NCBI GenBank assembly: GCA_030667735.1 | Contig: DAOUVG010000030.1 | Location: forward strand, 1-10,088 | DNA from: Dehalococcoidales bacterium | Lineage (GTDB): Bacteria > Chloroflexota > Dehalococcoidia > Dehalococcoidales > Fen-1064 | Reading direction: 5' to 3' | DNA length: 10,088 bases | In this document: piece after piece, positions 1 through 10,088 of the stretch | How the letters are laid out: the number at the start of each line of letters is the position of its first letter | Position numbering within the stretch: the first letter of the stretch is position 1 | Translations under genes and position numbers: made by a program | Notes under the pieces: generated by a model | Told to the model about the DNA's origin: nothing | The model's input: the letters and a program-made list of their open reading frames with translations, nothing else | The model's database searches: none

Positions 1-90
1 CAGGGACTGTAAAGGCATTTGTAAGACACTACACTAGCTGAAGCGATGAGACAGCAAAGAATCTCACCCGGCAAACTGAGTTTCAGGACG

Positions 91-128
91 AGCTGACTGG
101 ACCGGCTAATGGTCTGGCGGTATCAGCT
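91..128. repeat. Nested dyad downstream of the acyl-CoA synthetase gene
   Basis: The 144 bases before the end of the minus-strand gene contain no coding region I can support. They hold an imperfect nested dyad: AGCTGA (91-96) pairs with TCAGCT (123-128), and GACC/GGTC lies inside it. It sits just downstream of the stop codon of the minus-strand gene, so it could take part in transcript ending. No T-tract follows it, so I do not call it an intrinsic terminator. Confidence 0.25.
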
Positions 129-144
129 GTCCGGCGTACCGGTT

Positions 145-1551
145 TCAAGGGTGGTGGCGGTAGTACTCCAGGGTATTCCTGAGCGCACGCGCGCCGCGCT
201 CGATAGTGGGAAAGGCCGGGATACCAATCTCCTGGAACTTCAGGATGATGTCTCTGACCTCCCTGGCAGCATCCGCGGTGTATAAGAAAACGAATACCAT
301 CAATGGCTTCGATGTCGACTCTTTGACCTGGAGCATCAGGTCGAGGCTACCCTGGACCTGCTCTGGACTGATTTGCCGACCGGGCTTGGTTCCCGTGATA
401 CCTATCAGGTTGTCTATGTTCGGGTCCTGCGCAACGATTCCCCAGATGCGGCGCATGTCACGGCGCACCGGTCCGGCCGTGTCTATCGGGTTGCGGTAGC
501 TCCCGCCAACTACGTTGAAGAATGTCTCCAGTTCGCTGTAGGACTCCTGAGTGAGGCGGGGGACTCTCAGCCCGACATCAACCAGGGCATCGGTGATCGC
601 CACCGACTGTCCTCCCGAACCACCGATAACGGCCGTCCTGCCACCGCGGACCGGTGGAAAGTAGACGAGGGCCTTCAGGGTATCAATCAGCTCTTCCATT
701 GTGGTGACCTGGACTGCCCCGCACTGATTCACCGCGGCGTCCCATACCATTCGGGTTACGGCCAGTGCCCCGGTATGTGAGGCAATAGCCCTCCCCCCGT
801 CCTCGGTGCGCCCGCCCTTCCAAATCACCACCGGTTTGCGGGCAGCCGCTCGCCTGAGAACACTGAAAAACCTTCTGCCGTCCTTCACGCCCTCCAGGTA
901 CATGCCGATAACCTTGACCTCGGGGTCCTGGCTGAAGTACTCGAGGAAATCCGTGGCCTCAAGTGCAATGCCGTTGCCGGAACTGACCGACTTGCTGATG
1001 TCCAACCCGAGGAGGTGTGCATCCAGGCTGAAGGTCAGGGCCATGTTGCCGCTCTGCGAGATAAAGCCGACCGGTCCGGGGGTGCCGCAGTACTGGTCCG
1101 GGGTCTGCTTTATGCCCAGTCTCGGGTTGAATATCCCCATGCAGTTGGGACCGATGAGATGAAAGTTGGCCTCTTCCGCTCTTGCTGCCAGCGCCTGCTC
1201 CAGCCCTCTTCCTTCTTCGGTATGGGTCTCGGAGAAGCCCGAGGTGAAGAAATGGGCAGCAGCGACGTCCTTGCGGATGCAGTCCTCCAATACCTTCAGG
1301 GCCGCGTTTCTTGAGACCGCCACAATGGCCAGGTCAACCGGCTCGGGGATGTCAAGGAGGCTGGTATGGTTCTCCACTCCCAGGGCCTTGATATCCTCGA
1401 TAGTCTCCGGGTTGACCTGCACCGAGTACAGTTTTCCCTTGAAGTCGAGTTCGCCACGGAGCCATTCGAAGTTCGTCTTCTTGCTGTCACCAATGACGGC
1501 AACACACCTGGGGTTGAACGCCCGGTCCAACCTGTTGAAGTCTACTTTCAA
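145..1551 (-). CDS. ADP-forming acyl-CoA synthetase, alpha-type subunit (CoA-binding/ligase protein)
   Basis: 468 residues, matching the alpha half of NDP-forming acetyl/acyl-CoA synthetases, which convert acyl-CoA, ADP and phosphate to acid, CoA and ATP in the cytoplasm. A Rossmann-type CoA-binding domain fills about residues 10-130 (AVIGDS near 18, IGPNCMG 133-139). The succinyl-CoA-ligase-like part follows, with GFISQSGNM at 162-170 and SHTGAL at 258-263. H259 in that motif corresponds to the family's phosphorylated histidine. A third flavodoxin-like lobe runs from about 300 to the end. The ATP-grasp beta domain is absent, so a separate beta subunit is needed for the full reaction; none is in this window. 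The start is TTG: AGGAGA lies 4-5 bases upstream (reverse strand, near 1556-1561) and the next residues fit the family N-terminus. It follows rsmG on the same strand after about 100 bases but has its own promoter. The acyl substrate cannot be read from sequence. Confidence 0.88.
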   Translation of the reverse strand: MKVDFNRLDRAFNPRCVAVIGDSKKTNFEWLRGELDFKGKLYSVQVNPETIEDIKALGVENHTSLLDIPEPVDLAIVAVSRNAALKVLEDCIRKDVAAAHFFTSGFSETHTEEGRGLEQALAARAEEANFHLIGPNCMGIFNPRLGIKQTPDQYCGTPGPVGFISQSGNMALTFSLDAHLLGLDISKSVSSGNGIALEATDFLEYFSQDPEVKVIGMYLEGVKDGRRFFSVLRRAAARKPVVIWKGGRTEDGGRAIASHTGALAVTRMVWDAAVNQCGAVQVTTMEELIDTLKALVYFPPVRGGRTAVIGGSGGQSVAITDALVDVGLRVPRLTQESYSELETFFNVVGGSYRNPIDTAGPVRRDMRRIWGIVAQDPNIDNLIGITGTKPGRQISPEQVQGSLDLMLQVKESTSKPLMVFVFLYTADAAREVRDIILKFQEIGIPAFPTIERGARALRNTLEYYRHHP

Positions 1552-1602
1552 GGTTTCTCCTGAGTGCCTTCACTAATGAAACTCATTTCCTACGCTGAGG
1601 CT

Positions 1603-1632
1603 ATATTAGGCGGGCTGTCGACCGGCTGTCAA
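1603..1632 (-). promoter_or_regulatory. Sigma70-type promoter for the acyl-CoA synthetase gene
   Basis: On the minus strand TTGACA (1632-1627) is separated by 18 bases from TAATAT (1608-1603), about 50 bases before the TTG start. The -35 is a perfect consensus and the -10 matches four of six. A direct repeat of GACAGCC with an 11-base period (1630-1624 and 1619-1613) starts inside the -35 and runs into the spacer, a possible regulator site. The promoter lies in the gap after rsmG, so the downstream gene need not depend on rsmG transcription. Confidence 0.6.
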
Positions 1633-1651
1633 GGAGTCTCTGCTTCCACCA

Positions 1652-2374
1652 TCAGGAATGAAGCGGTCTCTTCGCCGGTATTCCCGGTCGGCGTGGGTAC
1701 TTCTCCGGAGTGGGGGAGACTTTCTCGATAATTACCAGACAGCGGTGGTCCGGGAACTCGGGCAGGTCAACGGCTCTCACCTCCCGTAACTCGCCCCCCA
1801 GTGTACTGATTGCCGCGGTCGCCTGCTCCAGTTCTGTGTCGATGTCTCCCCTTTTGTGGCCGATAAAAAAACCACCGACAGAACAGAAGGGTAACGTCAG
1901 TTCCACTAGTGTCGGCAATGGCGCGACCGCTCGCGATAGCACCAGGTCGAACCCTTCACGGTACTGCTTCCGGTGGGCGATTTCCTCAGCCCGGCCGACA
2001 ACGGTCTCAACCTCATCCAGCCCCAATTGCCCACACAGGTGGTGCAGGAATGCCGCCTTCTTTGCCGTCGATTCAAGCAGCACCAGCCGCATTACGGGGA
2101 AGGCTATTCTAAGCGGTACTCCCGGTATTCCCCCGCCGGTGCCGACGTCGATGACTCGCGGCCTGTCGCAATTTTCCCGCTCCTGCCAGACTGGTGTCAC
2201 CGTGAGGGCATCGAGGAAATGGTTTACCTGCACATTTTCATATCCGGTGATAGCGGTCAGGTTCATCCGTGTATTCCAGTCAATAAGCTCCCGGTAGTAG
2301 ACCTCGAACTGGTCAAACTGCTCCGCACTGAGGTTAAGTCCAAGTCTGCTTGTGCCGGAAATGAGTCTCTCCAT
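1652..2374 (-). CDS. rsmG: 16S rRNA (guanine527-N7)-methyltransferase RsmG (GidB)
   Basis: Class I SAM-dependent methyltransferase that makes m7G527 in the 530 loop of 16S rRNA. From the chosen ATG it has 240 residues, a normal length for RsmG. The helical N-terminus carries WNTRMNLTAI (33-42) and HFLDAL (52-57), typical of the family. The SAM-binding loop is VIDVGTGGGIPGVPL (74-88), followed by an acidic residue at E101 on the next strand. SRAVAPL (148-154) and GHKRG (172-176) are the later conserved family segments. A GTG at 2410 would add twelve residues. I chose ATG 2374 because it lines up with known RsmG N-termini, and because a TGC-TATAAT promoter element lies inside the longer version, where its transcript could not include that GTG. 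This gene is not obviously tied to its metabolic neighbours. Confidence 0.93.
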   Translation of the reverse strand: MERLISGTSRLGLNLSAEQFDQFEVYYRELIDWNTRMNLTAITGYENVQVNHFLDALTVTPVWQERENCDRPRVIDVGTGGGIPGVPLRIAFPVMRLVLLESTAKKAAFLHHLCGQLGLDEVETVVGRAEEIAHRKQYREGFDLVLSRAVAPLPTLVELTLPFCSVGGFFIGHKRGDIDTELEQATAAISTLGGELREVRAVDLPEFPDHRCLVIIEKVSPTPEKYPRRPGIPAKRPLHS

Positions 2375-2384
2375 GATGCTCACA

Positions 2385-2393
2385 ATTATAGCA
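2385..2393 (-). promoter_or_regulatory. Extended -10 promoter of rsmG
   Basis: The minus strand reads TGC TATAAT (2393 to 2385), a perfect -10 hexamer with the extended TGn motif. No convincing -35 is seen at 16-18 bases upstream, as is tolerated with an extended -10. Initiation about seven bases downstream would fall only 3-6 bases before the ATG at 2374, giving a leaderless or nearly leaderless mRNA. The octamer GTGAGCAT occurs twice, 27 bases apart, on either side of this box. Confidence 0.6.
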
Positions 2394-2424
2394 CAGAGAC
2401 ACATGCTCACTGACTGCCTTCTTC

Positions 2425-2453
2425 TTGACGAAGAGTGTTCGGGGCACTATAGT
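2425..2453 (+). promoter_or_regulatory. Strong plus-strand promoter, divergent from rsmG
   Basis: TTGACG (2425-2430), a 17-base spacer and TATAGT (2448-2453): five of six matches in each hexamer with ideal spacing. Transcription would begin near 2460 and reach the crotonase start at 2710 after about 250 bases of leader, or produce a separate small RNA. The promoter lies back to back with that of rsmG. Confidence 0.55.
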
Positions 2454-2625
2454 TAGGTCTATTATCGCGACCATCCCGCAGTGCCGGCTCTACAACGGCC
2501 CGGTAATTATGTAACGCATCGTTTCAGGAAGGAGGCTCTCTCATCGGTGAGGCGATAGCTCTGATGTTCGCCGAAGCCTGGTCGGACCATTGTCGTCGAT
2601 GGCGGTTTCCTTGCCTGATTACGTC

Positions 2626-2656
2626 CGTTTTACATCTTTCGGATGGAGGTAAAACG
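2626..2656. repeat. Perfect 8-bp inverted repeat, candidate operator
   Basis: CGTTTTAC (2626-2633) and GTAAAACG (2649-2656) are exact reverse complements 15 bases apart, with a smaller ATC/GAT pairing inside. The right arm ends directly before the TG of an extended -10 element, so the dyad covers the -35 zone of the proximal promoter. A bound repressor would block it. No T-run follows, so it is not a terminator. Confidence 0.5.
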
Positions 2657-2665
2657 TGTTAGTAT
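2657..2665 (+). promoter_or_regulatory. Proximal extended -10 promoter for the first crotonase
   Basis: TGT TAGTAT (TG at 2657-2658, hexamer 2660-2665) gives an extended -10 with four of six consensus bases and no good -35. Its start would lie near 2672, giving a leader of about 38 bases. The same TAGTAT hexamer serves as -10 for the second crotonase. Confidence 0.4.
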
Positions 2666-2709
2666 GACAGTAATTTCAATAAGCAACACGAGAATGGAAA
2701 GGAGTAGAA

Positions 2710-3504
2710 ATGGCTTACAAGTACTTAATCTATAAGAAGGACGCAGACAGACATATCGCTTATGTCACCATTAACCGTCCGGAGCGGATGAATGCCCTGC
2801 ACCCACCCGCTCACCCGGAGTTCTGGGAGGTCTGGAGTGATTTTCGGGACGACCCTGAGATGTGGCTGGGTATCCTTACCGGTATCGGGGACAAGGCCTT
2901 CTCGGCCGGCAATGACCTGAGATACCAGGCTGAACAGGCCGGGAAGAACGAGCCCAGAATACCGTCGCCACCGGGTGGCTTTGGAGGTATCACCAATCGT
3001 TTCGATTGCTACAAACCGCTGATTGCCGCTGTTAATGGCTTTTGCCTGGGGGGCGGGATGGAAATGGCTCTGGCCTGCGACATTATCATTGCCGCCGACC
3101 ACGCTCGCTTCGGGCTCCCGGAGCCAACCGTGGGTCTTAATGCCGGTGCGGGTGGTCTTCATCGGCTGCCACGGCAGCTACCACTTAAAGTAGCGATGGG
3201 AATGATACTCACGGCTCGGCACATCACTGCTGACGAAGCATACCGCATCGGGCTGGTTAATGAAGTAGTCCCTCTCAGCGAGTTATGGACATGCGTAGAT
3301 AGCTGGGCAAATGACATCTTGCGCTGCGCACCACTGTCAATTCGCTCATCCAAAGAGGCAGCTATGAAAGGTCAGGATATGACGCTTGGGGTTGCCCTGA
3401 ACCACGGTTTTCTTATGTCTCAGCAGATGGCACTGTCCGAAGACTTCGTGGAAGGGCCAAAGGCTTTCAGCGAAAAACGACCGCCAAACTGGAAGGGACG
3501 CTAA
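2710..3504 (+). CDS. Enoyl-CoA hydratase/isomerase (crotonase family), canonical active site
   Basis: 264 residues, a normal crotonase length. The enzyme should add water to, or isomerise, a trans-2-enoyl-CoA in the cytoplasm. The first oxyanion-hole segment is AFSAGNDL (63-70), following the usual INRPERMNAL (21-30). The second is FCLGGGMEMALACD (111-124). E118 aligns with the first catalytic glutamate (E144 of rat mitochondrial hydratase). E138, in FGLPE (134-138), aligns with the second (E164), and GAGG follows at 146-149. With both glutamates present, hydratase activity is plausible; the exact substrate cannot be read. The C-terminus ends in a typical FSEKRPPNWKGR tail. The ATG has Shine-Dalgarno AAAGGAG about five bases upstream. 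The stop lies only 10 bases from the convergent nitrilase stop, with no clear terminator between them. Confidence 0.9.
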   Translation: MAYKYLIYKKDADRHIAYVTINRPERMNALHPPAHPEFWEVWSDFRDDPEMWLGILTGIGDKAFSAGNDLRYQAEQAGKNEPRIPSPPGGFGGITNRFDCYKPLIAAVNGFCLGGGMEMALACDIIIAADHARFGLPEPTVGLNAGAGGLHRLPRQLPLKVAMGMILTARHITADEAYRIGLVNEVVPLSELWTCVDSWANDILRCAPLSIRSSKEAAMKGQDMTLGVALNHGFLMSQQMALSEDFVEGPKAFSEKRPPNWKGR

Positions 3505-3514
3505 CAGAATAGCT

Positions 3515-4369
3515 TCAGGCTGGTGGTTTATAAGCGTCGGGTCGGGTGAGGTCACCGTATAGCTCCGGGCGGCGGTCTCGGATAAAGTCCAACTCGAACT
3601 CGCCCGGCTTGACTACGAGACGTTTTTGCCTGGCCTGTGCCAGACTGACTTCGCCGTAGAGTATCTCTTCCTTCCTGGCGCTGCCGCTGGCAAGCGTGTC
3701 TCCCCAGGCGTTGGCGATTTTGCTCCGGCCGAGGAACCTGACGCCGCGCTCGACGCCGACACGGTCCACAGCCACCACGTGGACCTTGTTCTCCAGGGCA
3801 CGGGTATTGACCACGTACTTCGGGATATGACTCCTGGTTCCGGGCCAGTTGGTGGGCAGGGCGAGGATATCAGCACCCTGTAACGCCATGATACGGGCGC
3901 TCTCCGGAAAGTTGCAGTCGTAGCAGATGTGCATCCCGATGTTGCCAACCGGCGTCTGATGCACCTGGAACGGTCTGTCCCCGGGGTCTACGAAACGGTC
4001 GACACCGAGGAACGGCAGGTGGTTCTTCCGGTATTTGCCCACCAGCCCCTGCGGCCCAATCAGCGCGGCGGCGTTGTAGCATTTGTCGCCGTCTACTTCA
4101 AGGAGTCCGAAGACCACGTGCACGCCCAGTTCCCGGCAGAGGTCTGCCAGCCTGTCGGTTGCCGGGCCGGGTATGGTCTCCATGAAAGGCAGGGCTTCCT
4201 CACGACTGTTGAACACGTATCCGGTGAGGGCGCACTCCGGGAAGACAATTAGCTGCGCACCTTCTGCGGCGGCCTTCGCTGTCCAGAGCAGTATCTTCTC
4301 CAGGTTCACTTCGTTCTTCGTTATCCCGGGGTCTATCTGGACGGCGGCAACCTTCACGATATCACTCAT
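3515..4369 (-). CDS. Carbon-nitrogen hydrolase (nitrilase superfamily amidohydrolase)
   Basis: 284 residues with the nitrilase-fold triad in the expected order: E45 in VFPECALTGY (42-51), K115 in GKYRKNHL (111-118) and nucleophilic C149 in HICYDCNFPE (147-156). The family hydrolyses nitriles, omega-amides or N-carbamoyl amines. The GKYRKNHL and CYD-FPE pattern resembles the amidase and carbamoylase branches rather than true nitrilases, but the substrate is not determined. No signal peptide or membrane segment is seen, so it is cytoplasmic. The ATG start is supported by AGGAGG (4383-4378) eight bases upstream and by the normal N-terminus VKVAAVQ. It is divergent from the second crotonase and convergent with the first, so it sits between two acyl-CoA enzymes; joint function with them is only a possibility. 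Confidence 0.88.
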   Translation of the reverse strand: MSDIVKVAAVQIDPGITKNEVNLEKILLWTAKAAAEGAQLIVFPECALTGYVFNSREEALPFMETIPGPATDRLADLCRELGVHVVFGLLEVDGDKCYNAAALIGPQGLVGKYRKNHLPFLGVDRFVDPGDRPFQVHQTPVGNIGMHICYDCNFPESARIMALQGADILALPTNWPGTRSHIPKYVVNTRALENKVHVVAVDRVGVERGVRFLGRSKIANAWGDTLASGSARKEEILYGEVSLAQARQKRLVVKPGEFELDFIRDRRPELYGDLTRPDAYKPPA

Positions 4370-4400
4370 CAGAGCATCCTCCTATGGTCCTATGTAGCAC

Positions 4401-4429
4401 ACTCTAGGTGGAGGGCCTCGTTTTGTCAA
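4401..4429 (-). promoter_or_regulatory. Nitrilase promoter (divergent pair, left)
   Basis: On the minus strand TTGACA (4429-4424), a 17-base spacer and TAGAGT (4406-4401). The -35 is perfect and the -10 matches four of six. It lies about 30 bases before the ATG and faces away from the crotonase promoter, whose -35 is only 25 bases off. Confidence 0.6.
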
Positions 4430-4454
4430 ATCTTCCTGCGCCGGGAACAAGTCC

Positions 4455-4483
4455 TTGACAGCACAATCCTGGCGGTCTAGTAT
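4455..4483 (+). promoter_or_regulatory. Promoter of the second crotonase (divergent pair, right)
   Basis: TTGACA (4455-4460), exactly 17 bases, then TAGTAT (4478-4483). Initiation is expected near 4490, about 40 bases before the ATG. AGGAGGG (4519-4525) is the ribosome binding site, four bases before the start codon. Confidence 0.65.
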
Positions 4484-4529
4484 AACCGCGTTGCCACCAC
4501 GGATGCACTAATACTGCCAGGAGGGAAAA

Positions 4530-5321
4530 ATGGAATACCATGACATAATCTATGAGGTGGATGATTATATCGGCACGATAACGCTCAACCGCCCCCAGAG
4601 TCTGAACGCCTTCACCGATACCCTGCTTGCCGAGTGGGTGGATGCTATCGAGTCCGCCAAACGTGACCCCGGGGTACGGGTACTGATAGTAACCGGCGCT
4701 GGCAGGGGGTTTTGCTCCGGAATGGATGTCAAGGCTGCCGCAGGTGGAGGGCAGGCGCAACCCCTCTATGCCCGGCGTAACTATATGCGACTCGGTGTGC
4801 ACCGGGTGCCCCGGGCACTGGAGACCCTGGATAAGCCCTACATTGCCGCCATCAACGGTCCTGCCGCCGGGGCCGGCATGGACATGGCCAGCATGGCCGA
4901 TATCAGGATAATGTCGGATAAGGCTCGTGTGGGCATGAACTACGTCCGGGTGGGACTGCTGCCCGGTGATGCCGGGTGCTACTTTCTGCCCCGTATCGTG
5001 GGCATTGCCAAGGCATTGGAATTGATATGGTCGGGCCGGATGATTGACGCCGAAGAAGCGCTGCGTATCGGCTACGTCAGTATGGTGGTCCCCCACGACG
5101 AGCTGATGGAGAAGACGCGGGAGTTCTGCCGGCAGTTCACCCAGGCACCGGTAGCCACCCAGTTCGCCAAACGTCTCCTCTGGCGAGGCATGGACATGTT
5201 CCGTAACATCAACCTGGAGATGGCCGAGATGGCGATGCTGATAAACTCGACAAGCCCGGACACGAAGGAAGGCCCGCAGGCCTGGGTGGAGAAGCGGGAG
5301 CCGAAGTGGAGCGGTGAATAG
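4530..5321 (+). CDS. Crotonase-family protein lacking both canonical catalytic glutamates
   Basis: 263 residues with a full crotonase fold signature: LNRPQSLNAF (19-28), first oxyanion segment GFCSGMDV (60-67), second segment GPAAGAGMDMASMAD (110-124), and a C-terminal FCRQF...EKREPKW tail. At the place of the first hydratase glutamate there is D118, in GMDMA. At the second, the usual FGxPE is replaced by VGMNYVRVG, giving Y138. The following loop reads LLPGDAGCYFLPR (143-155), with an aspartate at 146 that could act as acid/base. The protein is therefore probably an isomerase, hydrolase, lyase or other crotonase-superfamily variant and not a standard hydratase. 'Enoyl-CoA hydratase/isomerase' is the safe family label. 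It has a near-consensus promoter, a strong ribosome binding site and a stem-loop terminator, so it is likely a monocistronic unit. Confidence 0.87.
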   Translation: MEYHDIIYEVDDYIGTITLNRPQSLNAFTDTLLAEWVDAIESAKRDPGVRVLIVTGAGRGFCSGMDVKAAAGGGQAQPLYARRNYMRLGVHRVPRALETLDKPYIAAINGPAAGAGMDMASMADIRIMSDKARVGMNYVRVGLLPGDAGCYFLPRIVGIAKALELIWSGRMIDAEEALRIGYVSMVVPHDELMEKTREFCRQFTQAPVATQFAKRLLWRGMDMFRNINLEMAEMAMLINSTSPDTKEGPQAWVEKREPKWSGE

Positions 5322-5350
5322 CGATTGTCAACCTTACCGGTTGAGGGGAA

Positions 5351-5386
5351 GAATAAGCGCTCGCCCTTTCGGGCGAGCGCTTATTC
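5351..5386. terminator. Perfect 16-bp stem-loop terminator
   Basis: GAATAAGCGCTCGCCC (5351-5366), loop TTTC (5367-5370), then the exact complement through 5386. The plus strand continues from a TTATTC arm end, so there is only a short U-rich tail; the minus reading is similar. It closes the second crotonase unit. A smaller stem (TCAACC 5328-5333 with GGTTGA 5339-5344) sits just before it. Confidence 0.75.
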
Positions 5387-5424
5387 CATGTGCCATACCG
5401 GCCGCAAGTTCCACTGTCCTGGCG

Positions 5425-5454
5425 TTGAATCATGTTCACCCGGACGGGTAAATC
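5425..5454 (+). promoter_or_regulatory. Possible promoter with dyad for the FAD reductase
   Basis: TTGAAT (5425-5430), an 18-base spacer and TAAATC (5449-5454) form a weak promoter candidate. The spacer contains ACCCG-GA-CGGGT (5438-5449), an inverted repeat flanked on each side by CATG, so a regulator could sit between the two hexamers. Some promoter is needed here because a strong terminator precedes it. Confidence 0.35.
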
Positions 5455-5487
5455 ATGGTAAGCTAGTAGTCAGGTCCTTTGTTTGAC

Positions 5488-5493
5488 GGGAGG
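5488..5493 (+). promoter_or_regulatory. Ribosome binding site that favours a TTG start
   Basis: GGGAGG lies immediately against the ATG at 5494 (zero spacing), too close to serve it, but is six bases before TTG 5500. It therefore favours TTG 5500 as the start of the FAD reductase. The TTG at 5479 lies upstream of this site and has no comparable one. Confidence 0.55.
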
Positions 5494-5499
5494 ATGCAG

Positions 5500-6696
5500 T
5501 TGTACGATGTTGCCGTAATCGGTGCCGGAGTGGTCGGGAGCCACACTGCCGGTAGACTGGCTGCGATGGGTCATAACGTGGTGGTCGTGGAAGGTAAGCG
5601 CAGCCTGACGGAACCCGTCTGCTGCACCGGGATTATTGGCCGTGAATGTGTCACATCCTTTGCCATCGGGGAAGACATCATCATGCGATGGGTGAAGGGC
5701 GCCCGGGTGTTCTCACCATCGGGCAAATCGCTCAAGCTGTGGCGGCCGAAATCCCAGGCTGCCATTGTCGATAGAGTATCGCTCAATGTCTCCATGATTA
5801 GCAGGGCTCAGGGAAGGGGCGCTCACTACGAGGTAGCAGCCCTCGTAAGGGATATCGAGGTTGCCGACGACCGGGTCAGGATTAAGGCGGTTCGCGGTAA
5901 CGAGCCGGTTCATCTTGAAGCCAGGGCGGCAGTTATCGCTACGGGCTTCAGACCCGGCCTGACCGAGCGACTCGGCTTGGGCAGGACTGGCGATTTCGTT
6001 GCCGGGGTACAGGCAGAGGTCAGTGCGCCCGGAGTTGAGGAAGTAGAAGTATACCTGGGCCGGGAAGTAGCCCCTTCGTTCTTTGCCTGGATGGTGCCGA
6101 CTACCTCCGGCATGGGACTTGCCGGGCTGCTTTCGCGGCGGACTCCGGAGGTCTATCTCAGAAAGCTGCTCTCGTTCCTGGCTGACCGGGGGAAGATAGC
6201 TTCGGCTGATGTCGAGGTGCTGCACGGAGGAATATCCCTGAAACCGTTGCCGAAGACCTATGGTGACAGGCTGCTGGTTGTCGGTACTGCTGCCGGACAG
6301 GTGAAACCCATCACCGGCGGTGGTGTCTACTACGGGTTACTCTGCGCCAACATCGCGGCGGAACACCTGCACAGCGCTCTGTCCGTAGACAACCTCTCGG
6401 CCGGGAACCTGGCTGGCTACCAGCGGGAATGGAAGCAGAGACTCGGATCGGAGTTGAGGACAGGCTACTGGGCCCGGAGAGTCTACGAGCGCTTCAGTGA
6501 CCGGCAGATTGACCGGCTGTTTGACATAATGGAATCGTCCGGCATCCTTGAAGCCCTGCTCAACGCAGAGGACCTTTCCTTTGACTGGCACGGGAGTGCT
6601 GTATCCCGCGTAATCAGCTTCGAGGTCTTTCGCAAGGTCATCGGGTCAATGAAGCTGCCGGCGCGCCTGAAGGACCGTATGCCCGGTCGGGAGTAG
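5500..6696 (+). CDS. FAD-dependent oxidoreductase, geranylgeranyl-reductase-like
   Basis: 398 residues from TTG 5500 (400 from ATG 5494, 405 from TTG 5479). The N-terminal dinucleotide-binding motif is YDVAVIGAGVVGS (2-14) with GxGxxG, and an acidic E31 ends the second strand to hold the FAD ribose. PVCCTGIIG follows (39-47), in the position of the conserved cysteine segment of geranylgeranyl reductases. Near 255-275, GDRLLVVGTAAG plus KPITGGG is the C-terminal FAD-contact motif of that family, with the usual GD of the motif changed to GT. Family members saturate isoprenoid chains of lipids, chlorophylls or quinones; the substrate here is unknown. No transmembrane segment is obvious. The short start is preferred because of ribosome-binding-site spacing and because most relatives begin directly at the YDV-like strand. 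It may be co-transcribed with the Gre-like gene 87 bases downstream. Confidence 0.82.
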   Translation: MYDVAVIGAGVVGSHTAGRLAAMGHNVVVVEGKRSLTEPVCCTGIIGRECVTSFAIGEDIIMRWVKGARVFSPSGKSLKLWRPKSQAAIVDRVSLNVSMISRAQGRGAHYEVAALVRDIEVADDRVRIKAVRGNEPVHLEARAAVIATGFRPGLTERLGLGRTGDFVAGVQAEVSAPGVEEVEVYLGREVAPSFFAWMVPTTSGMGLAGLLSRRTPEVYLRKLLSFLADRGKIASADVEVLHGGISLKPLPKTYGDRLLVVGTAAGQVKPITGGGVYYGLLCANIAAEHLHSALSVDNLSAGNLAGYQREWKQRLGSELRTGYWARRVYERFSDRQIDRLFDIMESSGILEALLNAEDLSFDWHGSAVSRVISFEVFRKVIGSMKLPARLKDRMPGRE

Positions 6697-6783
6697 CCCA
6701 CCGGACGAAGGTGAAAGCGCTCTGATTAAGTGTGCCGCGGGTGACGGGACTGATTACAGGGTTGTACAGGAGGAAGTATTAAA

Positions 6784-7584
6784 GTGACCGGCGGTAATGA
6801 GGATATCCGACTTGGTGAGGCTGCGCGCCGCTTTCTGGCTGGCCTGCCGGATGGGGAGAGAGAGGCCAGCCAGCATGAAATCTACCGGTTTGTCCGTTGG
6901 TACGGAACGGAACAGGCGTTAACCGGGATGTCTCCTCCACAGGTAGCGAACTACGCCGAGCAGTCGTCTCGGTCGGACACGGACTATGCGCGGAAACTTG
7001 AGTTGATACGGGGTTTTCTGGCTCACGCCAGGAAGCAGGGGTGGAGTCGGCTTAATCTGGCGGTTCACCTTAAGGCACGTAAGGTAAAGAGTAAGGCCGT
7101 GTCAGCGTCCAGAGAGCGTGATTCTGTTCTCCTGACACAGCAGCGATACGACGAACTGAAGGTCGAACTGACAGTACTGCTGGATAAACGTCCACAGTTG
7201 ATAGAAGATATCCGTAGTGCAGCCGCGGATAAAGACTTCAAAGAGAATGCCCCGTTGGATGCAGCTAAGGAGCAGCGTGGTTACCTGGAAGGGAGAATCC
7301 TGGAACTTGAGGGAGTCCTGGCTGCGGCGGTAATCATGGATGGGGAGCGAGCGAGCAGGCACAGGATTAGCATCGGTGATGATGTCGTGCTGAAGGACCT
7401 GGCATCAGGAGAAGAGGTCCGTTACACTCTGGTGAGTTCCAATGAGGTAGACCCTGCCGCCGGCAAGATTTCCAACGTTTCCCCGATAGGGAAAGCCGTA
7501 GTCGGACGGGCGGCGGGCGATGAGGTAGAGGTGACAGTGCCTGCCGGTAAGATGCGTTACAAGATTTTGAGCATTGGGAACTGA
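6784..7584 (+). CDS. GreA/GreB-family transcript cleavage factor with an extra N-terminal domain
   Basis: 266 residues, against about 158 for ordinary GreA. The C-terminal 150 are a complete Gre factor: a coiled-coil region from about 115-183, with the tip DFKENA (151-156) keeping D151 and E154. These are the two acids that, in GreA, place the Mg ion in the RNA polymerase active site to cleave backtracked RNA. The FKBP-like domain follows (197-266), with SPIGKAVVG (233-241) and VPAGKMRYKILSI (252-264). Residues about 8-100 are not part of GreA. They look like the alpha-helical core-binding (SAM-like) domain of tyrosine recombinases: RFLAGL, a Y/F-W helix (EIYRFVRWYG), then RKLELIRGFLAHARKQGW and a LNLAVHLKARK linker. 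No catalytic recombinase domain is present. The GTG start has AGGAGG (6768-6773) ten bases upstream. Gre assignment is firm; the N-domain assignment is pattern-based. Confidence 0.85.
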   Translation: MTGGNEDIRLGEAARRFLAGLPDGEREASQHEIYRFVRWYGTEQALTGMSPPQVANYAEQSSRSDTDYARKLELIRGFLAHARKQGWSRLNLAVHLKARKVKSKAVSASRERDSVLLTQQRYDELKVELTVLLDKRPQLIEDIRSAAADKDFKENAPLDAAKEQRGYLEGRILELEGVLAAAVIMDGERASRHRISIGDDVVLKDLASGEEVRYTLVSSNEVDPAAGKISNVSPIGKAVVGRAAGDEVEVTVPAGKMRYKILSIGN

Positions 7585-7599
7585 CGATTTACCGTGCTC

Positions 7600-7670
7600 A
7601 TTTGTTGGCGATGCCCGCAGAGTTAGTATTGCTTTACTGATTGCCAATGATATAAAATGCATCAACAAAT
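7600..7670. repeat. Inverted repeat bracketing the oxidoreductase promoter
   Basis: ATTTGTTG (7600-7607) and CAACAAAT (7663-7670) are perfect complements whose centres are 63 bases apart, close to six helical turns. Pairing can extend with ATGC/GCAT next to each arm if three bases bulge on the left. The right arm coincides with the expected transcription start, so a protein bound to both arms could loop out and control the promoter. Confidence 0.4.
7629..7656 (+). promoter_or_regulatory. Promoter of the aldehyde:ferredoxin oxidoreductase
   Basis: TTGCTT (7629-7634), 16 bases, then TGA-TATAAA (7648-7656): an extended -10 with five of six hexamer matches. Start near 7663, so the leader is about 28 bases and carries AGGAGG (7677-7682), eight bases before the ATG. 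A weaker alternative is TTGTTG (7602-7607) with TAGTAT (7624-7629). Confidence 0.55.
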
Positions 7671-7690
7671 ACGTTAAGGAGGCTTGATTC

Positions 7691-9583
7691 ATGACTGAAG
7701 AATCACCCGGCGGATATACTGGTAAGATTCTGAGGGTGAACCTTACCGATAGGCAGACCTCCATCGAAGAGCCTGATGCTAGGTTCTACCGGGAGTACTT
7801 CGGTGGGACTGCCTTGATTGGCTATTACCTGGTCAAGGAGCTGGAACCGGGTATTGACCCCTTGGGACCGAAGAACAAGCTGATTTTTACGGCAGGGGTG
7901 ATTTCCGGTGTTCCTGCCGCAGGATGTGGCCGTAGCGGAGTTGGTGCCAAGTCTCCCCTTACCGGTGGCTGGGGGGATGCTCAGGCAGGCGGGTTCTGGC
8001 CGGCAGAGTTGAAACGCGCCGGATGGGATGCCATTATATTTGAAGGTAAGGCGGACAAACCCGTGTACCTCTGGATTAAGGATGACCAGGTGGAAATTCG
8101 GGACGCCGCTCACCTCTGGGGTAAGACCACCGCCGAGGTGGACAGTCAACTCAAGGAGGAACTGGGCGACAAGAGAGTGCGTGTCACGCAGATAGGCCCG
8201 GCCGGTGAGAAGCTGGTGCGGCTGGCCGCTATCGCCAACGACATCAACCGCTACTATGGGCGTTGCGGGCTGGGTGCTGTCATGGGCTCCAAGATGCTGA
8301 AGGCCATCGCCGTACGTGGGAGCAATTCTCTGAAGGTGGCCAACCAGGAGAAGGTACGCGAGATTGCCGCCGCTACCGCCGATGTCATCAAGCGGTTTAT
8401 GGGCGGGTTCGCTTCCTTCGGTACCGCTGGTGGAGTTGGTGGACTGAACGCCATGGGGATACTGCCCACGAAGAACTTCCAGGAAGGGCAGTTCGACGGC
8501 TTTGAGAAAATCACCGGACAGGCAATGGCCGAGACTATCATGGTGGACACCGACAACTGCACTGCCTGTCCCGTCAATTGCAAGCGTGTTGTTGAAGTTG
8601 GGCCGCCGTACAATGTGGAGCGCGTCTATGGTGGGCCCGAATACGAGACCATCGGCTCCCTCGGTTCGCTCTGCGGGATAGATGACCTCAAGGCTATTGC
8701 TCATGGCAACCAGACCTGCAATGCCCTGGGACTGGACACCATCGGCACCGGTACAACTATCGCATTTGCTATGGAATGTTTTGAGAACGGTATCCTGACC
8801 GAGAAGGACACCGGCGGTATAGAACTGAAGTTCGGCAATGCCGAAGCGATGATGAAGATGGTGGAGATGATAGGGCGGCGTGAAGGACTGGGCGATATAC
8901 TGGCGGAGGGTGCCAAGCGTGCCGCGGAGAAGATAGGCGGAGGCGCCAGCCAGTATGCCATGCATATCAAAGGGCAGGAGTTGCCCATGCATGACCCCAG
9001 GGGCAAGGTTGGACTCGGGATGGGCTACGCTGTCTCACCTACCGGGGCAGACCACATGCACAACATCCACGACGTTGAGTTCATGCGCGTCAACCCAACC
9101 ATGTCAGCCCTGGGCATTCAAGAACCGCTCGACCCGTTTGACCTCGGTCTGTCCAAAGTCCGCTCCTTCTGGTACCTGGTCAACTGGCAGCACTTCAAGA
9201 ATTGTGCCATTACCTGTATGTTCTTGCCGTATGACCCCAATCGGATGGCTGAGCTTATCAGTGCGGTTACCGGTTGGAATACTAATGCCTGGGAGTTGGA
9301 GAAGGTCGGCGAACGTGCACTGGCTCTGGCCCGGCTCTTCAACGCCCGAGAGGGTCTCACTGCGAAGGATGACTTCGTGCCGGAGCGCCTGTACACAGGT
9401 GTTAGCAGCGGACCTCGGCAGGGTAAGGGTCTGGACAGGGAAGCATTCCAGGCGGCTATAAAGAGCTACTACGGTATGGCTGGATGGGATGCCGAGACGG
9501 CGTCGCCTACCGCTGACAAGCTGGCGGAGTTGGACCTTGCCTGGGCGATACCCGAGCTGGATAAGATACCGGGCAAGAAGTAA
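7691..9583 (+). CDS. Tungsten-containing aldehyde:ferredoxin oxidoreductase (AOR family)
   Basis: 630 residues, full length for AOR. The family oxidises aldehydes to acids at a W-bis-pterin site and passes electrons to ferredoxin through one 4Fe-4S cluster; the reverse reaction reduces acids. The N-terminal AOR domain has GKILRVNLTD (11-20), YFGGTALIGYYL (36-47) and the pterin-binding GRCGLGAVMGSKMLKAIAV (190-208). Cluster ligands are C290, C293 and C297 in CTACPVNC. The fourth is most likely C505 or C509 in NCAITC. The C-terminal helical domain covers the rest, with HDPRGKVGLGMGYAVSPTGADH (434-455), conserved around the cofactor in this family. AGGAGG eight bases upstream fixes the ATG. It has its own promoter and ends 36 bases before the convergent iron-sulfur gene. 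Which aldehyde it uses, and whether W or Mo is bound, cannot be read. Confidence 0.93.
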   Translation: MTEESPGGYTGKILRVNLTDRQTSIEEPDARFYREYFGGTALIGYYLVKELEPGIDPLGPKNKLIFTAGVISGVPAAGCGRSGVGAKSPLTGGWGDAQAGGFWPAELKRAGWDAIIFEGKADKPVYLWIKDDQVEIRDAAHLWGKTTAEVDSQLKEELGDKRVRVTQIGPAGEKLVRLAAIANDINRYYGRCGLGAVMGSKMLKAIAVRGSNSLKVANQEKVREIAAATADVIKRFMGGFASFGTAGGVGGLNAMGILPTKNFQEGQFDGFEKITGQAMAETIMVDTDNCTACPVNCKRVVEVGPPYNVERVYGGPEYETIGSLGSLCGIDDLKAIAHGNQTCNALGLDTIGTGTTIAFAMECFENGILTEKDTGGIELKFGNAEAMMKMVEMIGRREGLGDILAEGAKRAAEKIGGGASQYAMHIKGQELPMHDPRGKVGLGMGYAVSPTGADHMHNIHDVEFMRVNPTMSALGIQEPLDPFDLGLSKVRSFWYLVNWQHFKNCAITCMFLPYDPNRMAELISAVTGWNTNAWELEKVGERALALARLFNAREGLTAKDDFVPERLYTGVSSGPRQGKGLDREAFQAAIKSYYGMAGWDAETASPTADKLAELDLAWAIPELDKIPGKK

Positions 9584-9586
9584 AGG

Positions 9587-9616
9587 CTTATATCGTGCTG
9601 AAAAGCACGATATAAG
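9587..9616. terminator. Perfect 13-bp GAAA-loop hairpin between convergent genes
   Basis: CTTATATCGTGCT (9587-9599), loop GAAA (9600-9603), then the exact complement through 9616. It fills the gap between the oxidoreductase stop (9581-9583) and the convergent iron-sulfur gene stop (9620-9622), so it can serve both. There is no true U-tract on either side, so its strength as an intrinsic terminator is uncertain. Confidence 0.65.
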
Positions 9617-9619
9617 GGG

Positions 9620-9892
9620 TCATTTTCCGAGCAGCTTCCTCACGGCGTCGGCAGCAAGGCTGACCGCGCTGCCGATGACCGTGCGTCCGGTGACGATTGC
9701 GTCGAAGCGGCAGACCTCGTGACAGCACATACACTCTATGCAGATGGCGCGGTCGATGACGGCGACGCCGGCAACGCCGGCGCTCTTGCCCTGGATAGTG
9801 ATTGCCCCGGTAGGGCACGCCCTGACACACTCGGCGCACGCCGTACACTGCTGCTCCACCACTTTTGGCCTGACGGAGAGTTGGCCCACCAC
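9620..9892 (-). CDS. Two-cluster 4Fe-4S ferredoxin-like reading frame (C-terminal part of a DUF362-type protein)
   Basis: 90 residues from a GTG start. Two bacterial-ferredoxin motifs are complete: C16-x2-C19-x2-C22-x3-C26-P (CTACAECVRACP) and C51-x2-C54-x2-C57-x3-C61, the second with arginine where proline is usual. It should bind two 4Fe-4S clusters and carry low-potential electrons, possibly for the convergent aldehyde oxidoreductase next door. The GTG is only the first usable start after an in-frame TAG at 9979-9977. The frame stays open and protein-like between that TAG and the GTG, and no good Shine-Dalgarno precedes the GTG. I therefore think this is the tail of a longer gene and not a native small ferredoxin. 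The clusters themselves are certain; the gene boundary is not. Confidence 0.7.
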   Translation of the reverse strand: MVGQLSVRPKVVEQQCTACAECVRACPTGAITIQGKSAGVAGVAVIDRAICIECMCCHEVCRFDAIVTGRTVIGSAVSLAADAVRKLLGK

Positions 9893-10088
9893 GAACCTGG
9901 ATAGAGGGGCGGGTATCTTCCTGAGGAGTGTTCGTTTGGCACTGACAGGGAGCCGGAAGTCACTGGTGGTGACACTCTAGATGCTTTCCCCGACTACTTC
10001 TATGCTGTCGAGACTGCCCACTCCCAGACCGCGCTCGTGGGCATAGCGGGTAGTAGCGATATCCATCGGGTCCATACCGATGATTCCG
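9620..10088 (-). pseudogene. DUF362-type iron-sulfur protein split by an in-frame TAG, 5' end outside the window
   Basis: Reading the minus strand from the window edge in the frame of the ferredoxin-like part, 36 codons are open (10087-9980): GIIGMDPMDIATTRYA, then GLGVGSLDSIEVVGESI. A TAG follows (9979-9977), and then 28 more open codons with no start codon (SVTTSDFRLPVSAK...APLSRF). These join straight into the two-cluster segment. The order - MDIA-tryA helix, GLG, D-IEVVGE strand, dF-LPvs segment, two 4Fe-4S motifs - is what I recall for DUF362-domain proteins, so both sides of the TAG belong to one ancestral gene. No frameshift is involved. A single base change from CAG, GAG or AAG would explain it. 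Recoding or a sequencing/assembly error are the alternatives. The N-terminal majority lies beyond the right edge. Confidence 0.65.

Follow-up and report, generated by a model that had tools for sequence, protein, structure and literature searches.

The hairpin of Gre transcript-cleavage factors enters the secondary channel of RNA polymerase, where the acidic residues at its tip hold the second magnesium ion (PMC4598747, PMC5715097; these and the other papers given by PMC number are drawn on as excerpts). Certain paralogues of cleavage factors, namely Gfh1, Rv3788, and archaeal TFS4, are non-cleaving and inhibit the polymerase (PMC4598747, PMC5715097). Gre domains are also found fused to other partners in the TPR-GreA/B-C-PIN conflict systems (PMC8195603; TPR, tetratricopeptide repeat) and, judging by model names only, are joined to other domains in the long GreA models PRK14720 and PRK06330; neither those names nor the excerpts of PMC8195603 mention a domain of recombinase type. 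Here we describe a protein in which a complete Gre factor is preceded by a core-binding domain of the tyrosine-recombinase type. It is encoded at positions 6784-7584 of a 10,088-nucleotide stretch of DNA (the window, by which we mean the whole stretch analysed) from a Dehalococcoidales bacterium of the phylum Chloroflexota (GenBank assembly GCA_030667735.1, contig DAOUVG010000030.1, positions 1 to 10,088, forward strand).

With GreA and GreB this protein has in common the hairpin, the FKBP-like C-terminal domain, and the D..E acid pair of the tip, and it differs from them by about 110 added N-terminal residues and by the tip sequence DKDFRENAP in place of the usual GDLSENAEY. With the core-binding domains of tyrosine recombinases (XerC/D, lambda Int, 3nrw) it shares the four-helix fold and the basic pattern of helix 4, but it is devoid of the catalytic domain, has a shorter entry into helix 2, and scores under the Pfam cut-off. 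In MrpR/YopR of prophage SPbeta, too, a recombinase scaffold has become a regulator that does not recombine DNA; however, this protein keeps the whole two-domain scaffold and is a repressor, not a polymerase factor (PMC10516654). The layout of a helical N-terminal domain, a linker, and a cleavage module with an acidic tip is shared with TFIIS (PMC8886746) by analogy only; the folds are different and homology is not claimed. The likeness to Gfh1, Rv3788, and TFS4 would concern the plain, unfused Gre paralogues of Chloroflexota and not the fusion, which keeps the D..E pair. Gfh1, unlike those plain paralogues, retains acidic tip residues, and the inhibitor role of the paralogues is putative.

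Architecture and Identity of the N-Terminal Domain

The architecture, conservation, fold, distribution, and tip-acid pattern of the fused protein were established by computation. Its gene comprises the following features:

6784-7584, + strand: open reading frame of the fused Gre factor, 266 residues plus stop codon, GTG start, full-length relatives found
6768-6773, + strand: Shine-Dalgarno-like AGGAGG, ten bases 5' of the GTG start, read directly from the sequence
6796-7083, + strand: core-binding (SAM-like, tyrosine-recombinase-type) domain, residues 5-100
7084-7125, + strand: variable low-confidence linker, residues 101-114, 31% mean identity, predicted local distance difference test (pLDDT) score below 50 at residues 99-112
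7126-7341, + strand: Gre coiled-coil hairpin, residues 115-186, PF03449, predicted helices 119-148 and 156-181
7234-7245, + strand: hairpin tip with the acid pair D151 (codon 7234-7236) and E154 (codon 7243-7245)
7357-7578, + strand: Gre C-terminal domain (FKBP-like, RNA-polymerase-binding), residues 192-265, PF01272, solved Gre factors matched

Residues 1-114 of the 266-residue protein are an addition ahead of a complete Gre factor. Both Gre domains exceed the curated Pfam cut-offs (GreA_GreB_N, residues 116-184, 59.4 bits vs. 24.5; GreA_GreB, residues 193-264, 87.5 bits vs. 26.9), and D151 and E154 occupy the positions of the catalytic acids of Gre factors at the hairpin tip. The nearest Gre model, NCBIfam NF001263 (GreA), is matched with 145.7 bits, barely over its cut-off of 145. 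No recombinase catalytic domain with its nucleophilic tyrosine was matched by the whole protein at E 1 in Pfam, and the remainder of the protein is Gre.

The N-terminal domain (N-domain) alone has a confident predicted fold (predicted template-modelling score of 0.81) with four helices, at residues 10-19, 23-40, 51-60, and 68-84. Structure comparison indicates its similarity to recombinase core-binding domains, the four-helix SAM-like fold extending across the whole domain. In profile alignments by hhalign, the N-domain matched Xer N-domains with probabilities of 95.2 and 96.3%, while 50 shuffled controls did not exceed 2%. The gathering score of the Pfam family Phage_int_SAM_1 was missed (17.7 bits vs. 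22.3; 14.2 bits with the whole protein), as was every other Pfam cut-off tested on the N-domain; consequently, databases name the protein GreA. Sequence searches of other kinds identified no relative of recombinase type: the N-domain profile matched no recombinase in the PDB and only this gene in the window's own genome at E 10, and a word-based search with residues 1-108, which depends on shared exact words, returned 91 proteins, all 91 with PF03449, with no recombinase and no free N-domain among them.

Two other identities of the added helices were considered. Gre-specific helices are rejected, the alignment of the N-domain with the Gre domain reaching a probability of 0.2% only. An unrelated helical bundle is less likely given the hhalign controls and the gap in the structure comparison; the Foldseek E-values (best 0.022) would be insufficient alone. 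With high confidence, we therefore assign the N-domain as a SAM-like core-binding domain of the tyrosine-recombinase type that is not accompanied by a catalytic domain.

The extension and the Gre parts of the protein are conserved to the same degree. A database search matched 2136 proteins at E 0.001, and the best 120 of 2136 are 258-285 residues long, which leaves room for the N-domain. In an alignment of 48 sequences hand-chosen from these 120, all 48 carry the N-domain, and pairwise identity averages 68.8% over residues 8-100, 71.7% over the hairpin, 64.3% over the C-terminal domain, and 31.0% over the linker. A mis-called start is thereby ruled out. An earlier note on this DNA, made from the letters alone, had proposed that a complete Gre factor, bearing D151 and E154 at its tip, follows an N-domain of XerC/XerD type without its catalytic domain, and each part of this proposal is borne out by the results above: the match to recombinase core-binding domains was recovered by both profile and structure, although below the Pfam cut-off, and the extension is conserved in relatives.

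Distribution and Origin of the Fusion

Among named records, the fused gre was found at 67 loci: all of these records are titled Dehalococcoid- or Chloroflexi/Chloroflexota, 65 loci show the full fusion, and the other two run past the end of the sequence. Of the 118 genomes of the class, 106 contain the fusion; 30 of these 106 have one Gre match only, and the other 76 have at least two. In the window's order it was found in 16 of the 17 genomes drawn, and in 15 of those 16 it is the single Gre match. In the phylum as a whole at least 77 of 301 genomes carry it; the rule that the profile match begins at position 45 or earlier gives 71, to which six divergent genomes of family f66 were added. All seven members of a divergent genus (f18, g21), counted in the class, carry the N-domain with E 6e-14 or better, and two Gre sequences of family f66 (G229 and G245) are divergent fusions, visible with wider flanks. 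In three of the divergent f66 fusions (L376, L377, and L361), the N-domain ends with SDPMKNVRLPR, by eye nearer to the NP..PK ending of recombinases than is that of the window's protein.

The survey across genomes that the earlier note had called for thus finds a widespread architecture, and its remark that this architecture is unfamiliar from the standard literature agrees with our search of full-text literature (a scope from which subscription papers and preprints mostly fall out), which gave no description of a Gre factor fused to a recombinase-type domain. Its question whether a normal greA is also present has a divided answer. The window's own genome, which is 88% complete, yielded no normal greA and no second Gre match at E 0.001, whereas many relatives do have a plain Gre; those that share a genome with a fusion, however, are without the canonical tip acids. 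The fusion may also compete with another secondary-channel factor, as the earlier note suggested; the window's genome encodes one DksA/TraR-type zinc-finger protein (46.9 bits).

In a tree of the Gre domains only, comprising 87 fused and 32 plain sequences, the fused ones form one side of one branch (support 99/95, recovered in 200 of 200 bootstrap trees). A quicker tree of 93 fused and 45 plain sequences places them again on one side of one branch (93 by the Shimodaira-Hasegawa-like approximate likelihood ratio test). Both trees are unrooted, and their simplest reading is that the fusion probably had a single origin in Chloroflexota.

Several relatives depart from the common architecture. One fusion-type Gre (G360, L276 1476-2022; tip DKDVRENAP) has a short lysine-rich start in place of the N-domain, a natural loss of this domain. 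Two short relatives of family f121 (G367, L289 1500-2061, and G358, L290 628-1288; frames of 187 and 220 residues) consist of the N-domain and the Gre hairpin (tip GDLSENAGYH) with no Gre C-terminal domain. Downstream of each lies a frame resembling the 2-oxoacid ferredoxin oxidoreductase gamma subunit, which in the case of G367 matches Pfam POR, and upstream of each is a frame that we take to resemble the beta subunit of the same enzyme. A genome of the window's order that has no fusion (G178, L281 1338-1752) encodes a 138-residue protein that starts like a zinc ribbon (Zn_Ribbon_TF, below cut-off), contains a Gre hairpin with the tip GDLKEN, and has no C-terminal domain; nearby, on the opposite strand, another frame matches POR_N weakly, also below cut-off. 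The second Gre match of another genome (G074, L286) is a Gre C-terminal domain that ends a 1604-residue open frame, possibly a large conflict-system protein. In Dehalococcoides mccartyi CBDB1, GreA (cbdbA743) is acetylated at K17 in stationary phase (PMC7918482, the only paper found on GreA and Dehalococcoides), but this lysine could not be placed, residue 17 counted from the first ATG being N or S in the three g2 genomes checked.

Tip Acids of Fused and Plain Gre Proteins

Beyond the identification of the domain, a further finding is the contrast between the tips of fused and plain Gre proteins. Among 147 fused sequences (135 of them distinct), D is present at position 151 in all 147 and E at position 154 in 146. 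In a first set of 43 plain paralogues from fusion-bearing genomes, none has D..E. In 13 genomes of families f42, f66, and f80, the pair is present in all 13 fused proteins and in none of the 13 plain ones, where it is replaced by D..D, A..E, S..E, or S..D. In the final tally, D..E occurs in none of 56 plain sequences beside a fusion vs. 33 of 46 sequences from genomes in which no fusion was seen. This tally leaves out the fusion-type Gre without N-domain, classes G229 and G245 as fusions, and contains, among the 56, 24 sequences with only about 100 flanking bases, so that an upstream N-domain would lie outside those pieces. It is firm that, in this part of the phylum, the fusion keeps the canonical acid pair and plain GreA no longer does. 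The fusion is probably the working cleavage factor.

We tentatively propose a change of guard, to which we assign somewhat less than an even chance. After a single fusion event, the DNA-gripping Gre would have become the transcript-cleavage factor; plain GreA, freed from cleavage, would have lost D..E in several ways (D..D, G..N, S..N, A..E, S..E), become a non-cleaving factor of the secondary channel, perhaps a Gfh1-like antagonist, and then been lost in the window's order. Several observations limit the tip-acid pattern. The D..D tips, which make up 15 of the 56 plain sequences beside a fusion, may still work. In genomes of the class without the full fusion, all nine plain sequences also have no D..E, and these account for nine of the 13 exceptions in the final tally. 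Tree-aware tests of the tip pattern had too few independent pairs (five and two on well-supported branches) and gave no significance. Relatedness accounts for part of the association between fusion and tip and, given so few independent pairs and those nine plain sequences, a small number of events may underlie it.

Possible Function of the Added Domain

Since the biology of Gre factors is well established, the Gre half can be expected to do its usual job, that is, to enter the secondary channel, where D151 and E154 would make a backtracked polymerase cut its transcript. Cleavage activity, DNA binding, and tethering are inferred here. We favour, by a modest preference, the reading of the protein as a transcript-cleavage factor with a grafted DNA-binding-type domain which holds it on DNA; for the extra domain itself such a tether is the best inference, somewhat more probable than improbable. 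The N-domain, of recombinase origin, would sit outside the polymerase, tied to the hairpin base of the Gre half by the flexible linker, which is variable, predicted to be disordered at residues 99-112, and presumably long enough for the domain to reach nearby surfaces. There it would grip duplex DNA beside the transcribing polymerase without sequence preference and so keep the factor ready close to elongation complexes. The fusion would have arisen once in Chloroflexota and taken over transcript cleavage, and it would usually be the sole Gre remaining in the window's order.

The residues of the N-domain bear on this reading and on its rivals. The frequency of K/R per column correlates between fused N-domains and Xer (Spearman 0.42, a value reached by 0 of 95 circular shifts, although the alignment itself favours such matches). 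Basic positions common to both are 71, 76, and 100, with 70 and 84 shared less strongly; recombinase basics are missing at the positions aligned to 25, 27, 51, 55, 65, and 80, and six residues are absent ahead of helix 2, the entry of which is shortened. Of 134 N-domains, 132 have a positive net charge, and the mean is 5.1 vs. 5.0 in Xer N-domains. As far as can be judged from the residues, nucleic-acid binding is probably retained and inherited site recognition probably is not, since the basic residues of recombinase type are only partly kept.

The main rival, which we consider unlikely but worth weighing, is that the N-domain no longer binds DNA and docks on a protein, either RNA polymerase or a partner, so as to raise the affinity for polymerase or to recruit the partner, in the manner of TFIIS domain I, which contacts polymerase cofactors (PMC8886746). 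The loss of half of the recombinase basics would fit such docking, as would the appearance of new conserved basics (26, 35, 38, 44, 83, 97, and 99) and of the aromatics W39 and Y57, and in G358 and G367 the N-domain stands on a hairpin without the polymerase-binding C-terminal domain, as though it alone positioned the hairpin. However, the basic residues of helix 4 and of the tail are retained at 89-97%, and the net charge matches that of Xer N-domains, which weighs against docking.

The core-binding domain of recombinases helps in site recognition. The earlier note had suggested that the N-domain may hold DNA or the polymerase near particular sites, so that cleavage would act locally; in this reading, the domain would recognise a DNA sequence and confine cleavage to certain loci. 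MrpR, a recombinase-fold protein turned site-binding repressor (PMC10516654), offers a precedent; nevertheless, with the start of helix 2 shortened and its recombinase basics gone, we regard such anchoring as improbable, the more so as the fusion is usually the only Gre in the window's order and a purely local role would leave the remaining genome without a Gre. That the extension has no binding function, being a leftover or simply an aid to solubility or folding, as the existence of G360 without an N-domain and of G178 with a zinc-ribbon-like hairpin protein instead of the fusion might suggest, is highly improbable, because the N-domain is constrained as strongly as the Gre domains and is retained in 106 of the 118 genomes of the class.

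Gene Neighbourhood

The fused gre lies between two oxidoreductase genes:

5479-6696, + strand: gene of an oxidoreductase dependent on flavin adenine dinucleotide (FAD), directly upstream, Pfam DAO/Lycopene_cycl
7691-9583, same strand as gre: aldehyde:ferredoxin oxidoreductase gene, after the fused gre

Of the 67 named loci, 59 of which have at least 1300 bases upstream, 39 have a homologue of the FAD-dependent oxidoreductase upstream of gre in the same orientation; this neighbour suggests no function for the fused gre. Also upstream in these loci (L088-L154) are a frame that resembles thiC, in 28, and one that resembles thi4, in 11. An aldehyde:ferredoxin oxidoreductase gene beside gre was found only in L088 among the 67. 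A scan of positions 6500-7800 detected no terminator; its single promoter-like match is weak and lies within the next gene.

Significance

The fused protein is a real, conserved variant of Gre, hidden by the label GreA; it was overlooked because of this label and because its N-domain lies under the Pfam cut-offs. While Gre factors are regarded as uniform small proteins that diffuse to RNA polymerase, a large group of Chloroflexota, including the compact genomes of the window's order, has a Gre with a built-in DNA-binding-type domain, often the only Gre found. This makes it testable whether the tethering of a cleavage factor to DNA alters when and where backtracked polymerase is rescued. The plain GreA paralogues, whose tips are altered, are an obvious place to look for new inhibitors of the polymerase. 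If the proposed change of guard is true, many genomes would contain two opposed Gre proteins, one a tethered cleaver and the other free and non-cleaving.
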